Source: Nitrospira sp.
GTDB taxonomy: Bacteria > Nitrospirota > Nitrospiria > Nitrospirales > Nitrospiraceae
NCBI GenBank assembly: GCA_016873395.1
Contig: VGXG01000006.1
Coordinates: forward strand, 1-64,000
Direction of reading: 5' to 3'
Length of the DNA: 64,000 nucleotides
In this document: positions 40,119-47,386 of the stretch, one piece after another
Numbering within the stretch: position 1 is the stretch's first letter
How the letters are laid out: every line of letters starts with the position of its first letter
Translations under genes and position numbers: made by a program
The notes under the pieces: model-generated
Seen by the model: only the letters and a program-made list of their open reading frames with translations
Database searches by the model: none
What the model was told of the DNA's origin: nothing

Positions 40119-40799
40119 TCATCTCACTTTTGAGAAATCCGCCTCGAACTCGGTCATTTTGCCGTCAGGGAAAAAAACAACCACCTTCGTCTTGGCATTG
40201 GAGTCGAAACTGTCATAGGCAAACCGCGCTGTGAAGCGAGTCCGGTAGGCCGGCCCCTGCCCTTCATTCTTGCGACCCTTGTCCGGCGGACTCGCATCGA
40301 CCGGCTTGACCGTCTTGGAGCCCTGCTGGAGCGCGATCTGCACGCCATCCGCGAAATACTCGTCATCCCCGCACAGTTGCACTTCCATCTCCAGATTCGG
40401 CATGTCCAGATATTTCCGGATCTTGTCATCCGGCATCCGGACGTCGGTTTTCTGCTTCTTTGATTCGGTGGCCTCCTTGCGACCAAACGATTCCAACCAG
40501 TACCGCTTGGTCCGCAAGACTGCGCTGGCGCCGCAGGGGTCCTTTTCCGGATCAGCCCCCACCCGCGTCGCCAGGGCTGCCTGCTGCAAGAGCTTCTTCA
40601 CATCCTCCGGCGTGTTGGCCTTCTCCATCGGCTCGCGGCCGGCAGCCAGGGCTTTCTTGGCTTCTTCCATCGTGAGCTTGACGTCGATGGCATATACCGG
40701 ATGCGCCGCCCAGGCCACCACTGCCCATGCGCCGATGAGCACACCGAGCCCTACCCTGACCCTCAACGACAGCGCTCCTTGCATGACTCCCGACCCCAT
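40119..40799 (-). CDS. exported protein of unknown function
   Basis: 226 residues. Signal peptide with arginine n-region and hydrophobic core (VGLGVLIGAWAVVAWAAHPVYA split by cleavage after VYA). The mature part has helical repeats (EEAKKALAAGREPMEKA), two cysteines that could pair (DPCGASAVL and EVQLCGDDE), and a beta-rich C-terminus (YRTRFTARFAYDSF, KVVVFFPDGKM). No family recognised. ATG 40799 lies 5 nt after GGAGG of an R7 cassette; the longer frame upstream reads only repeat sequence. Confidence 0.7.
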   Translation of the reverse strand: MGSGVMQGALSLRVRVGLGVLIGAWAVVAWAAHPVYAIDVKLTMEEAKKALAAGREPMEKANTPEDVKKLLQQAALATRVGADPEKDPCGASAVLRTKRYWLESFGRKEATESKKQKTDVRMPDDKIRKYLDMPNLEMEVQLCGDDEYFADGVQIALQQGSKTVKPVDASPPDKGRKNEGQGPAYRTRFTARFAYDSFDSNAKTKVVVFFPDGKMTEFEADFSKVR

Positions 40800-40804
40800 A
40801 ACGG

Positions 40805-40874
40805 CCTCCATACCAAGCTTGCTTGAGCCGCCACGTTCGATCAACTCGTGGCGGATCGTTACTTTGCCTCCAGT
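40805..40874 (-). repeat. R7 cassette, single complete unit
   Basis: On the minus strand: ACTGGAGGCAAAGTAACGAT, stem CCGCCACG / CGTGGCGG around AGTTGATCGAA, then CTCAAGCAAGCTTGG and TATGGAGG. The last GGAGG is the ribosome site of the gene starting at 40799. Closest copy to unit 1 at 13253. Confidence 0.85.
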
Positions 40875-41066: not shown

Positions 41067-41699
41067 TCAGCGTTGGAAGACCGCCCAGTTCGGATAGGGC
41101 TTGTCACGATAGAGCTGCTCCACGGTGATCGGCAGGGCCACTCCCCGCTTCTGGAGCAGGCCGGCCACCAGCCGGAGCGGCAACCCGACCGCCGCCGTAT
41201 AGTCGCCTTCGATACGCTCAATGAACCGGCCGCCGACCCCTTGAATCGAATAGGCCCCGGCTTTGCCCAGACACTCCCCCGTGTGCAGGTAGGCCTCCAG
41301 TTCCGCCTCATCGAACGGCCGCATCCAGACCAGGACCGTCTCAACCGCTGCATCCTGGACTGCATCGGATCGCCGAAGGAGCGCCACCGCCGTATGGATC
41401 ACATGGGCGCGCCCGCGCAGACGCAGGAGCATGGACCGCGCGTCGGTGAGGCCGGATGGTTTTCCCATCACCTCGCCGTCGAGCGCGATCAGCGTGTCAC
41501 TCCCGAGGATCAAGCTACCCGGGAACCGCGCCGCGCACGATCGGGCCTTGCCCTCGGCAAACATCGTCGCCTGCTCATCTGGAGAACCGTCCCGGCTTAG
41601 GCGCTCGATGAAACTCGGCTCTGCGACCTGGAAGGGAACTTGGAGAAGGGCCAAGAGGTCTTTCCGACGCGGAGAAGTCGAGGCCAGAATCAGGGACAT
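41067..41699 (-). CDS. maf: Maf-family nucleotide pyrophosphatase
   Basis: 210 residues. N-terminal LILASTSPRRKDLLALL motif, GSDTLIALDGEVMGKP, and a SIQGVGGRFIERIEGDYTAA segment with the family's catalytic and substrate-recognition residues. Maf enzymes hydrolyse non-canonical or pyrimidine NTPs and are linked to division arrest. Directly follows the dus gene with 3 nt between them. Confidence 0.92.
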   Translation of the reverse strand: MSLILASTSPRRKDLLALLQVPFQVAEPSFIERLSRDGSPDEQATMFAEGKARSCAARFPGSLILGSDTLIALDGEVMGKPSGLTDARSMLLRLRGRAHVIHTAVALLRRSDAVQDAAVETVLVWMRPFDEAELEAYLHTGECLGKAGAYSIQGVGGRFIERIEGDYTAAVGLPLRLVAGLLQKRGVALPITVEQLYRDKPYPNWAVFQR

Positions 41700-41702
41700 G
41701 GA

Positions 41703-42929
41703 TCAGGCGCAGGAAAGAGACGCGGGCGGTGCGGAGCGAGCCGGGACATCGGCCACGGCAGCGGATAGCGGCTCGGACAGCGCATAGTCCGCCACGATCC
41801 GCTCGACGTCGGCGCTGCTGGAGGCACGGACCATCCGGGCCCGCATCGCCGCGGCGTGGGGAAAACCCTTGCAGTACCACCCCAGATGCTTGCGCATGCG
41901 CGGGAACCGATCGTTTCCGAACAGGGCCTCGAACTGGCGCGCATGCTCGAGCATCACCCGGAACCGCTCGACGCGATCCGCCTGAACATCGAAACGCTCG
42001 CCGAGCCGCGGGCCGGTCGCTTCCGAACCGTTGGCAAGGGCGCGCGCCGCTTCCTTGTTCCGGAAAAACCAGGGGGTGCCCAACGCTCCCCGACCGACCA
42101 GCACCCCCTGGACCTGCGCCTCGCGAATCCTGTCCGCCACGTCCTGCATGGACTGGATGTCGCCGTTGCCAACGAGCAACGTCTCCGTGCCGCCGGCGAC
42201 GCGAGCCGCCCGTCCGATCGCAGCCCAATCCGCCGCCCCTCGGTACATCTGCTGGAGCGTTCTGCCATGCACCGAAATGACCGCCGGCCGCTCTTCCAGC
42301 AGATGGCTGATCCACTGTTCGATGACCACCGAGTCATAGCCCAATCTGGTTTTGACCGACAGGGGGATAGACCGGCGTGGAACATCCGGACGGCCGCTCC
42401 GGTTCACATTCATGGCCCGGATCAGCTCCACGCGGGCTTGCTTGAGTCCGACCGCCGCCACCGGTTGGCCGCCGGCCCAATCCGTGATCCCCTGGCGCGC
42501 CGCCCTCATGATCTCGTGGGCCAGGTCCGGCGTCTTAATCAACCCGGCCCCAGATCCGGAGGAAGCCACGTTGCGGGATGGGCAGCCCATGTTGATGTCC
42601 AGCCCGTCGAAGCCTAACTCGCACACGACATGGGCCGCTTGATAGAAGAGCGCCGGATCCTTTCCATACAACTGCGCCACCACCGGCCGCTCTTCTTCAC
42701 TGAAAATCAGCGACGAGAGCAGAAAGTCCGGCCCGCGGCAGATGTCCCCGACGCTCGTAAACTCCGTAAAGGTCACGTCCGGCCGGCCCTGCCGGGCCAC
42801 GACCAGCCGAAAGGCGGCATCCGTCACTCCATCCATAGGAGCCAGGCCGATGACGGGCTGCGGAAGCCGGGCCCAAAAACCGGCGTGAGACGTGACAGGT
42901 GAGAGGTGAACGGTTTCTGAGGATGGCAT
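41703..42929 (-). CDS. dus: tRNA-dihydrouridine synthase
   Basis: 408-residue FMN TIM-barrel enzyme: VIGLAPMDGVTDAAFR, FTEFTS, VAQLYGKDP, GLDINMGCPSRNVA (catalytic Cys in GCP), SVKTRLGY, ISVHGRTLQQMYRG, GNGDIQSMQD, GVLVGRGALGTPWF. Reduces uridines in tRNA D-loops. The first ~15 residues (SSETVHLSPVTSHA) are encoded by one arm of an R3 repeat, so ATG 42929 is uncertain. A C-terminal extension past residue 330 includes ALFGNDRFPRMRKHLGWYCK, typical of DusB-like proteins. Confidence 0.9.
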   Translation of the reverse strand: MPSSETVHLSPVTSHAGFWARLPQPVIGLAPMDGVTDAAFRLVVARQGRPDVTFTEFTSVGDICRGPDFLLSSLIFSEEERPVVAQLYGKDPALFYQAAHVVCELGFDGLDINMGCPSRNVASSGSGAGLIKTPDLAHEIMRAARQGITDWAGGQPVAAVGLKQARVELIRAMNVNRSGRPDVPRRSIPLSVKTRLGYDSVVIEQWISHLLEERPAVISVHGRTLQQMYRGAADWAAIGRAARVAGGTETLLVGNGDIQSMQDVADRIREAQVQGVLVGRGALGTPWFFRNKEAARALANGSEATGPRLGERFDVQADRVERFRVMLEHARQFEALFGNDRFPRMRKHLGWYCKGFPHAAAMRARMVRASSSADVERIVADYALSEPLSAAVADVPARSAPPASLSCA

Positions 42930-42968
42930 TTCTTTTAACTTTTCACGCTTCACTTTTCACCTTTTACG
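42888..42968. repeat. R3-family GTGAGACGTGACAGG hairpin
   Basis: GCGTGAGACGTGACAGGTGA and GAGGTGAACGG face TTTTCACGCTTCACTTTTCA and CCTTTTACGCG between dus and the DUF692 gene. One arm is read as dus coding sequence. Confidence 0.55.
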
Positions 42969-44478
42969 CGACAGGCCTCACCTGCTCGCAGGCTGCGCCA
43001 TAGGCCTCTCGCAGCACGGTCGCCTCTCTGACCGCTGTCTCGATCGCCTCCGGGAGGACTTCCCGGACAAACGCCTCAAACCGCTCGATCTTGAGCAGGA
43101 AAAAATCATAGGGAGCCGGCGACCGGCGCGGCTCACGCACCCAGTAGCGCACAAAAGACTCAAGCGCGATATCCGCCTGGTCCAGCCGGCGGCAGGTTTC
43201 GGGAAACATATCGCGCAGATCGCCGCCCCAGTACAGAATTTCATGGGGGAGATAGGTTTGGCGATAGGCTTCCAGGGCGCCCGGCTCCAGGTCAAGCGCG
43301 GGCAAACCCAACGGCGGATCAGTCCATCGCTTCCCCGTGACGAGGCCGGCATAGCGATCGTACTGAGCCAACAACTCTTGTTTGCCGGTGTGCGCTTGTC
43401 GATCCTCCGCAACAGGCTGCGTGAGCCTTCCGGCCTGCCGTTCGGCATGAAGAGCCGGACGCCCTGCATCCTGCCGAGCCGGTTGAACCGGCCGGCTCAG
43501 AGCATCCCACGAGGCGAACCGTTCCGTGAACTGCTGGAACTCCTGCACGATCTGCAGCACGGTCTTGTTGTCCACCTCCAGCGCAATCCCTTTCAGGCAG
43601 CGAAGCTGCGGGTGGGCCAGCACGCGCTTCAGCATGTCGAACAATAATCCGGGAATCGGCGCCCCATGCGCATCAAGCCACCTGGGAGAGCCGGCTGGAT
43701 CAGATGCCTTGCCACCCGCTTCATGCAGGGCCAGGCCGGCCACGTGAATCTGCACGACCCGCTCCATCGGGAAGACATCCAGAAACTCGGCAAGGAACTC
43801 AGTCAGCCCTTTTCGACGGGCTTCGCCCGAGTAGCGGTAGACCGTCCAGAGGTGCCCGATGTCCAGGACCATCCCGCAGGGGGTCCGGTCCGCCACGCGG
43901 CGAAAAAACTCCGCAACCGGCAGATCGCCGAAGGCGAAGTAGGTCAAGGGCGGCAGCTCTAAGAGGAACAGAGGGACACGACCAGTCGGCGCAGGCATCT
44001 GCCGGTCGAGATGGTCCTGCACGAGCCTGATATGCTCCGCTGTCACCTCGACACTCGCCTGCGTATACAGCGGCGGCAGATAGGTCCCGAAGGCATAGCC
44101 GGCCATCTGCTTGGAGGCACATTCGTGGTTGATCCAATGACAGCCGAGCGTCCCCAGATGCGCAGCCGCCGTAGCCAGCTCATGATCGAGGTGATAGGCT
44201 GTGTCCATGTCCGGTTGTGTCACCCACAAGCCTTCTGCGTGATATTCCAACAAGCAGGCCGGCAAGCGCTGCCGAACGGCAGCCAGAGCCGGCTGCGACG
44301 CCTTGAAGATTTCCAAATACCCATAGGCCAGGGAGCACTGCTCCAAGGCATCGACTAGCTCGAATAGGTCCGGCTGATAGACGTCCACGGACAGGCCAAG
44401 GCCGTGACGGGGGATCAGCGACACCCGTTGGAGAAATTCCTGGTCAACCGGCGCCATGTCTTCCTCAAGAACAGCCAC
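42964..44478 (-). CDS. DUF692/MNIO-family putative iron oxidase with extra C-terminal domain
   Basis: 504 residues. The first ~320 match the multinuclear non-heme iron oxidase (DUF692) TIM-barrel: RHGLGLS (24-30), LEIFK with E56, LEYHAEG with H80, LLELPPLTYF with E174, LDIGHLW with D206/H209, QIHVAG with H245, LDAHG with D269/H271, ALEVDN with E301. Family members (MbnB, TglH) oxidise cysteine or other residues in ribosomal peptides. Residues ~325-504 are an added domain without recognised motif, including a Q/R-rich linker and an aromatic YDRYAGLVTGKRWTD segment. No peptide partner gene was identified; dus and maf follow on the same strand. Confidence 0.8.
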   Translation of the reverse strand: MAVLEEDMAPVDQEFLQRVSLIPRHGLGLSVDVYQPDLFELVDALEQCSLAYGYLEIFKASQPALAAVRQRLPACLLEYHAEGLWVTQPDMDTAYHLDHELATAAAHLGTLGCHWINHECASKQMAGYAFGTYLPPLYTQASVEVTAEHIRLVQDHLDRQMPAPTGRVPLFLLELPPLTYFAFGDLPVAEFFRRVADRTPCGMVLDIGHLWTVYRYSGEARRKGLTEFLAEFLDVFPMERVVQIHVAGLALHEAGGKASDPAGSPRWLDAHGAPIPGLLFDMLKRVLAHPQLRCLKGIALEVDNKTVLQIVQEFQQFTERFASWDALSRPVQPARQDAGRPALHAERQAGRLTQPVAEDRQAHTGKQELLAQYDRYAGLVTGKRWTDPPLGLPALDLEPGALEAYRQTYLPHEILYWGGDLRDMFPETCRRLDQADIALESFVRYWVREPRRSPAPYDFFLLKIERFEAFVREVLPEAIETAVREATVLREAYGAACEQVRPVA

Positions 44479-44568
44479 GAAGCATCAGTGTAATCGGGGG
44501 AGCAGGATTTGACAAGCCGCCCCCTCGCCCGGCCCGCTCCTGGTTTGCTCTTTTCCCTCGAAGGCCTG

Positions 44569-44596
44569 TTATCCAGCCGGGCAGTCATGCTATCCT
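44569..44596 (+). promoter_or_regulatory. possible promoter of the DHH phosphoesterase gene
   Basis: TTATCC at 44569-44574, 16-nt spacer, extended TGC-TATCCT ending at 44596, about 12 nt before ATG 44609. The mRNA would have almost no leader, and no SD is visible. Confidence 0.35.
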
Positions 44597-44608
44597 GTGC
44601 ATCTGTCT

Positions 44609-46461: not shown

Positions 46462-46842
46462 TCACCTTGGAGCAGGTAGCACGGTGATCTCCGGCATCGG
46501 ATAATCCTTGGCGTTGCCTGTGGCCACCGACGCACCCTCGACCAATGCCGTTGCCGCGATCAAGCAATCGGCCAAATCCAACCGCCGCTGCCTCATTCTG
46601 TTTTTGAAGTGCCCTGCCAGTTCGGCGATCGTTCTCGTGATCGAAAAGATCACCAATCCATCGAGGAGGTCAGCGGTGGCCTCGTTTTCCTCCGGACGCA
46701 TCCCCGCATAGAGCTCCGCGACCGAGATCACCGAGCAACAAGGGATCGAGCGGTCGGTCACTTCATCGAGAAACGCTTTGGTTGCGTGGCGGCCCCTCAG
46801 AGCATCAATGAGCACATCCGTGTCCAGAATAATCTTGCTCAT
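46462..46842 (-). CDS. vapC: VapC-type PIN-domain toxin
   Basis: 126 residues. PIN acidic residues: MSKIILDTDVLID (D7, D9), SVAELYAGM with Glu, and LDLADCLIAATAL with Asp. Mg-dependent ribonucleases of this family cleave tRNA or rRNA when released from antitoxin. Starts 4 nt inside the end of vapB (ATGA overlap). Position beside a purK remnant suggests the pair arrived with a rearrangement. Confidence 0.88.
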   Translation of the reverse strand: MSKIILDTDVLIDALRGRHATKAFLDEVTDRSIPCCSVISVAELYAGMRPEENEATADLLDGLVIFSITRTIAELAGHFKNRMRQRRLDLADCLIAATALVEGASVATGNAKDYPMPEITVLPAPR

Positions 46843-47105
46843 CGAGCCTTCAGCCGTTTGAGGCGAGAGGACCGGCGCAGGGATCGGACAAAATGCCGCG
46901 CCCCCCTTGCGAGCTCAGGATGCTCCTGACCCTTCCAAGTTCCAAAACTGCGCTGCAGGGCCTGCTTGAATTTGATCCGCTTGAGCTCGTTGCGCAACGC
47001 TTCCCCTACGACCTTGCTTTGTTCTCCCTTCGGAACGGTTTTCTTCAATTCCTCCAGGAGATCTTCCGGCAGGGTGAAGTTGGCTTGTTTCGTGACCGTT
47101 CCCAT
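46839..47105 (-). CDS. vapB: VapB-type antitoxin, ribbon-helix-helix
   Basis: 88 residues. The first ~45 (VTKQANFTLPEDLLEELKKT, then VVGEALRNELKRI) fit a ribbon-helix-helix DNA-binding domain; the basic C-terminus (FVRSLRRSSRLKRLKAR) would wrap the toxin. ATG 47105 has GGAGG 4 nt upstream. It probably represses its own promoter through the repeats at 47119-47142. Confidence 0.8.
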   Translation of the reverse strand: MGTVTKQANFTLPEDLLEELKKTVPKGEQSKVVGEALRNELKRIKFKQALQRSFGTWKGQEHPELARGARHFVRSLRRSSRLKRLKAR

Positions 47106-47118
47106 AGCACCTCCTCTA

Positions 47119-47142
47119 CCTATATAACTGCCTATATGATGG
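47119..47142 (-). promoter_or_regulatory. vapBC operator/promoter repeats
   Basis: Direct repeat CCTATATAACTG / CCTATATGATGG immediately upstream of the vapB SD. AT-rich 12-bp spaced repeats overlapping the promoter are typical RHH autoregulation sites. Confidence 0.5.
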
Positions 47143-47386
47143 CGCGGTGTGGGCAGAATGTCAAAAGAATTACGGGTGGGAAGGGCAAGAGAAGCCACAC
47201 CGGTACCAACTTCTTTTACACTTTTTCCCACCCTGGGCCTCGGCTGGACGGGATGGAACTCAAACAGGGGTGGCCGGGCTGATTCCCTAACTGCGCGCGT
47301 CCAGCGAGCACTTTCCGAAGTGCGCGATGCGCGAGCACGGGGGATTAGCCTGGTCGCCTCGTTCCTCCGCCACAGCCGAGGCCCTT
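47143..47386. other. intergenic, no gene recognised
   Basis: Between vapB and the TAXI gene. It holds a hairpin GCACTT-TCCG-AAGTGC near 47310-47325 flanked by GCGC-rich sequence, and nothing else I can support. Confidence 0.3.

Follow-up and report, generated by a model that had tools for sequence, protein, structure and literature searches.

A Nitrospira MNIO-family protein with a fused helical domain and a predicted PbsC-type ligand set

Results

An MNIO gene heads a dus-maf operon

We analysed a window of 64,000 nucleotides (positions 1 to 64,000 of contig VGXG01000006.1) from Nitrospira sp. An MNIO open reading frame of 504 amino acids, counted from a GTG codon, lies on the minus strand; the plus-strand frame has stops. 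The ATG at 44457 (residue 8) is the likelier start. It has a GAGGA-like site upstream and agrees better with ortholog N-termini than the GTG. Features are listed in Table 1. The protein divides into a barrel, a linker and a helical C-terminal domain. Two further genes, dus and maf, follow in the operon. Both had been named as neighbours in an earlier reading of the sequence alone (the sequence-only reading), and both were confirmed by Pfam.

Table 1. Features of the MNIO locus, with residues numbered from the GTG codon
Feature	Position	Strand	Basis
MNIO (PF05114) gene with fused C-terminal domain	42964..44478	-	ORF, Pfam, ortholog alignment
TIM-barrel MNIO domain, residues 1-325	43504..44478	-	AF2 model, VIA comparison
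Low-complexity, poorly conserved linker, residues 326-363	43390..43503	-	pLDDT <50 over 326-362
Helical domain like TglI N-terminal domain (by model), residues 364-504	42967..43389	-	Model and 64 orthologs
H80, predicted iron ligand (TglH His71 position)	44239..44241	-	Invariant in 64 sequences
E119 (TglH His107 position), then invariant C120	44122..44124	-	W115/W103-anchored alignment and hhalign
E174, predicted bridging ligand (TglH Glu151 position)	43957..43959	-	Invariant in 64 sequences; alignment
D206-x-x-H209 (TglH Asp184 and Asn187 positions; Asn to His)	43852..43863	-	Invariant in 64 sequences; alignment
H245 (TglH His216 position)	43744..43746	-	Invariant in 64 sequences
D269-x-H271 (TglH Asp229/His231 positions)	43666..43674	-	Invariant in 64 sequences
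E301-x-D303, predicted Fe ligand (TglH Glu258 position) and candidate base	43570..43578	-	Invariant in 64 sequences
dus (tRNA dihydrouridine synthase), next operon gene	41703..42953	-	PF01207, 2e-54
maf, third operon gene	41067..41699	-	PF02545, 4e-51

Other genes in the window were also inspected. The gene at 40119-40844 (minus strand) encodes a conserved protein with a signal-peptide-like start and no Pfam match. It occurs in 90/99 Nitrospirales relatives and keeps its position near maf in Nitrospiraceae. We rejected it as a substrate or partner, since those 90 genomes include most of those lacking the fused MNIO. At 46462-47231 (minus strand) lies a PIN-domain protein (PF01850); a short upstream gene overlaps it by 4 nt, resembling a VapBC-type toxin-antitoxin pair. 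In most Nitrospiraceae relatives, divergent CBS/PilZ and LOG-like genes separate the MNIO gene from a DHH gene. Both are absent here (44478-44597).

The barrel is that of an MNIO

Pfam family PF05114 matches the protein at 1e-15, with 58.1 bits against a curated cut-off of 25. The NCBIfam equivalogs for BufB, ApyH and HvfB score it far under their cut-offs (46 bits against 310 for BufB). Hence, it belongs to none of these named types. An AF2 model of the whole protein, built from six sequences, has a pTM of 0.75. Comparison using VIA gave TglH (8hi7_B) the top score of all chains compared (Z 24.2, 266 residues, rmsd 2.9). The score for MbnB was Z 22.9; MNIO structures span Z 20-24 and the best non-MNIO chain reached Z 17.0. 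Membership of the barrel in the MNIO (PF05114) family is firm. Hence, the MNIO barrel called by the sequence-only reading is borne out twice, by the profile search that it proposed and by a predicted structure with a TglH/MbnB-like barrel.

Two of nine iron ligands are changed

The iron ligands of TglH are H71, H107, E151, D184, N187, H216, D229, H231 and E258 (PMC10880893). Seven are identical in the MNIO protein and two are changed: H107 to E119 and N187 to H209. To the sequence-only reading, all metal-binding positions appeared present. Indeed, the eight residues that it named (H80, E174, D206, H209, H245, D269, H271 and E301) are invariant in 50 orthologs and 14 sequences from a distant family, far beyond chance. 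However, its list missed the ninth. Alignment of W103-VANHC in TglH with W115-INHEC places E119 at the His107 position, and hhalign with conventional MNIOs likewise pairs H107 with E119. The preceding H118 is conserved in 44/50 orthologs, with Gln in 5; not being invariant, it is unlikely to be a ligand. Also invariant in the 50 + 14 full-length orthologs are E119, C120, D303 and K305. By analogy with MbnB, where Asp240 has a similar position, D303 is a candidate general base (PMC10880893).

The two changes leave MNIO membership open to the protein, because a closely similar pattern has been published for PbsC. An AlphaFold 3 model of PbsC gives H97, D133, E178, D213, H216, H247, D260, H262 and E290 as ligands, and its product is ortho-hydroxylated Phe (PMC12257519). 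We surveyed other MNIOs at the two variable positions. His/Asn was found in BufB types, TglH and MbnB, all of which modify Cys. The ApyH ortholog and a second Nitrospirota MNIO type have His/His; ApyH acts on Asp (PMC11117315). Acid/His was found in the Nitrospirota fused MNIO family, one Streptomyces plasmid MNIO and one Piscinibacter MNIO. With an acid at TglH position 107 and His at 187, both invariant in 64 sequences, our protein falls in the PbsC-type ligand class. Because PbsC, a Phe hydroxylase, has the acid/His set, hydroxylation of a non-Cys residue is predicted. We infer this ligand-to-chemistry rule from few enzymes, and the PbsC ligands are themselves modelled.

The sequence-only reading had taken the ligand set as standard and Cys chemistry as the default. 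Glu at 119 and His at 209, matching PbsC, speak against this, and the two residues deviate from every Cys-modifying set checked. We nevertheless considered a Cys-modifying enzyme like TglH, MbnB or BufB that acts on a precursor peptide encoded at another locus of the genome to make a metallophore or pearlin-type compound. Family and barrel are the same, TglH has a Cys at the same place as the invariant C120 next to E119, and unlinked precursors have been reported for bufferins (PMC12452194). Yet the source genome (2.34 Mb, 97.8% complete) contains no DUF2282 gene, and the relatives that do are those with separate BufB-type clusters. We regard this alternative as unlikely. A second MNIO and a DUF2063 partner were also looked for in the source genome and not found. 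Hence, it lacks what a bufferin system requires.

The changed site could instead mean that O2 chemistry has been lost. The protein would then be a metal-dependent, non-oxidative enzyme (a hydrolase, isomerase or phosphodiesterase) of the superfamily that includes endonuclease IV, CbiR and xylose-isomerase-like proteins. Endonuclease IV carries an Asp-x-x-His pattern, which H209 recreates; the change of His to Glu alters the site further, and endonuclease IV and epimerases come after the MNIOs in fold lists. Those other folds reach Z 17 at most, against 20-24 for MNIO structures, and the protein retains every carboxylate along with the other TglH/MbnB ligands. Moreover, PbsC, with a similar ligand set, is an active oxygenase (PMC12257519), and the three lineages outside which most of the phylum lacks the fused MNIO are presumed aerobic. 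Loss of O2 chemistry therefore seems a little less likely still than Cys modification.

The C-terminal domain is helical and weakly resembles TglI

Every full-length ortholog aligned conserves about 140 structured residues at the C-terminus, and G418, G419, D458, K463 and E485 are invariant in 50 + 14 of these orthologs. Because of this conservation, the extension is as old as the MNIO family that carries it. Modelled alone, residues 362-504 are all helical (pTM 0.67), with pLDDT >90 in the core helices. We searched 350,542 chains with this model. Foldseek returned 33 weak chains; TglI (8hi7_A) had the highest query TM (0.46, others ≤0.26), with an E of 6.5. VIA also placed TglI first, aligning 128/143 residues to TglI residues 1-158 with a Z of 5.0, which is low for a helical domain. 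Only about ten of the chains searched are MNIO partners, by our own count. Hence, one is unlikely to appear by chance among 33 draws (roughly 1 in 1000 by our own post hoc estimate).

Foldseek and VIA lists, which do not exclude other families, held no convincing fold for the domain besides TglI. No RRE domain was seen in the model, and the match, confined to TglI residues 1-158, stops short of the TglI RRE. A full RRE is absent from many PME-type 2 proteins (PMC12452194). Searches of PDB sequences, Pfam and NCBIfam gave no match to the domain. Profile comparison with DUF2063, the ApyI-like partner, the second Nitrospirota partner and the Streptomyces extension was not significant; the same kind of comparison gives no match between known partner families either.

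Structure prediction had been proposed for the ~180-residue C-terminal region. Residues 326-362 form a flexible linker with pLDDT <50; the remainder is helical, and TglI is its best match, though a weak one. The suggestion that the extension may replace the partner is plausible, TglI being the best PDB match and a DUF2063 partner being absent from the genome. On the strength of the model, we consider it probable that the C-terminal domain is a fused partner-like domain.

The fused MNIO forms a distinct branch in three lineages

Searching with the protein gave a match in 69/99 relatives. Once genomes whose sole MNIO is of a different, conventional type are set aside, 55/60 members of the same family carry the fused MNIO. 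It is nearly always single-copy, any second match being a split fragment or another MNIO. When 395 Nitrospirota genomes were searched with a profile, 142 gave matches, the distant family among them. Hence, the fused MNIO is known from its own family, part of its order and one distant family, which is probably Leptospirillum-like. Outside these three lineages, most of the phylum lacks it. None of 72,556 plasmid records covered 80% of the protein, and listed matches end at or before residue 324.

In a tree, the fused MNIO family is a clade (100/99) that groups with acid/His (Asp and His) MNIOs (98/94), the two grouping sequences being long branches, and lies apart from BufB and ApyH. This agrees with the earlier suggestion of a new branch. 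The Nitrospirota group is not described in the MNIO literature searched, and the main landscape paper does not mention Nitrospirota (PMC12452194).

Gene neighbours differ between lineages and include no precursor

The position of the fused MNIO gene is conserved within each lineage. In Nitrospiraceae the order is MNIO-dus-maf, and in 19/37 loci dus begins inside the final 4 nt of the MNIO gene (modal overlap -4 nt in relatives). Hence, MNIO and dus are probably translationally coupled. In the second family the gene follows gltB-gltD. The probably Leptospirillum-like family has neither dus/maf nor gltBD and shares no neighbour with the other lineages.

This pattern bears on a role in tRNA or nucleotide modification with Dus and Maf as operon partners. 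The overlap with dus, with maf next, would fit such a role, as would the resemblance of the barrel to the DNA-acting endonuclease IV. However, the dus/maf link is limited to one lineage, and the C-terminal domain weakly resembles a peptide-recognition partner. We know of no MNIO that acts on RNA. The tRNA substrate offered as an option by the sequence-only reading thus gains little, and we judge this role improbable, more so than either alternative above.

No precursor or partner gene was found beside the fused MNIO in any of the three lineages. No widely conserved small ORF adjoins it either; the few small-ORF groups within 6 kb occurred in a small number of loci, mostly at distances >4 kb, and looked unrelated. 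Conventional Nitrospirota MNIOs do adjoin precursors and partners, in DUF2282-MNIO-DUF2063-DoxX-like clusters and in the aminopyruvatide-like and PTCHQ clusters described below. Because the same survey detects precursors there, their absence here is meaningful. The proposed survey of orthologs therefore turned up no overlooked precursor and partner pair, in keeping with the initial impression of a gene outside any obvious RiPP cluster. Separately, in 4 loci of the probably Leptospirillum-like family (L133 (-7), L131, L130), a small exported protein that is rich in His and Lys and has two Cys lies near the MNIO gene, at varying positions.

Discussion

A self-contained MNIO is proposed

We propose that the protein is a self-contained MNIO, its partner-like domain built in by fusion, and that its target is a peptide or protein modified in trans. 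The reaction is more probably C-H hydroxylation than Cys chemistry. We give this reading an even chance. Briefly, the enzyme is predicted to bind two or three irons and would activate O2. The helical domain would be a covalently attached docking domain, like the N-terminal domain of TglI, that shapes the substrate cavity. D303 may serve as the general base. The enzyme would hydroxylate a C-H bond of a residue other than Cys, in a peptide or protein whose gene lies at another place in the genome, much as PbsC acts on Phe.

Nitrospiraceae include key nitrifiers. A bolder and more doubtful version is that an MNIO was recruited from peptide natural-product chemistry to core physiology. Here, a single-copy, fused-partner oxygenase would hydroxylate a housekeeping protein in nitrite- and iron-oxidising Nitrospirota, with no biosynthetic cluster. 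In the papers cited here, MNIOs are treated as enzymes of peptide natural products whose genes usually lie close to that of a precursor. If our suggestion is true, an unclustered, fused version that is near-universal in Nitrospiraceae and present in the probably Leptospirillum-like family would widen the reach of MNIOs to cellular proteins. It would also offer a system, in one polypeptide, for studying how the partner works. The ligand comparison also offers a testable rule: His/Asn for Cys chemistry and acid/His for C-H hydroxylation.

Comparison with known systems and other MNIO loci

BufB and BufC (DUF692 and DUF2063) share the PF05114 family with our protein and occur as separate clusters in some of the same genomes. 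However, DUF2282, DUF2063 and DoxX genes are part of full BufB clusters. Two further kinds of Nitrospirota locus were encountered. One holds the second MNIO type, which appears to lack the Asp-x-His pair that would bind a third iron (L078:8202-10039; also L077:2197-4064 and L079). Beside it are an ORF of ~60 aa, in which ELQPTCHQ/LEELVPTCHQ motifs recur, and a partner-like protein of ~260 aa. This PTCHQ locus looks like an undescribed RiPP cluster. The other is an aminopyruvatide-like cluster (L144:7259-13728) comprising a P450, a 63 aa ORF, the ApyH ortholog (440 bits, cut-off 400), a partner-like protein, a B12-radical SAM protein and a methyltransferase-like protein.

A partnerless MNIO, MovX (PMC12452194), is a precedent for partner function possibly fused to an MNIO. 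It differs in its methanobactin-like cluster and fused winged helix-turn-helix, whereas our protein has a helical TglI-like domain. The Streptomyces europaeiscabiei plasmid MNIO WP_327348927.1 (533 aa) shares the acid at the His107 position, LDIGH, E-x-PP and a long C-terminal extension, but the C-terminal similarity is not significant and its cluster is of the YcaO, acyl-protein synthase and acyl-CoA reductase kind. There (L155:2268-4072), the MNIO adjoins a 51 aa ORF and genes for YcaO, an MBL-fold protein, acyl-protein synthase and acyl-CoA reductase.

TglH and TglI, of the 3-thiaglutamate pathway, are the closest structural matches to the barrel and, weakly, to the C-terminal domain. They differ in that TglI is separate and has an RRE, and that TglH, whose site contains His107 and Asn187, acts on a C-terminal Cys. 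PbsC (PMC12257519), the Phe ortho-hydroxylase of a biphenomycin-like pathway, shares the series His-acid-Glu-Asp-His-His-Asp-His-Glu, as compared using its published ligand list. PbsC has a separate RRE-containing partner, clustered precursors and Asp as the acid, whereas the Nitrospira protein stands outside any cluster, has Glu as the acid and carries its C-terminal domain as a fusion.
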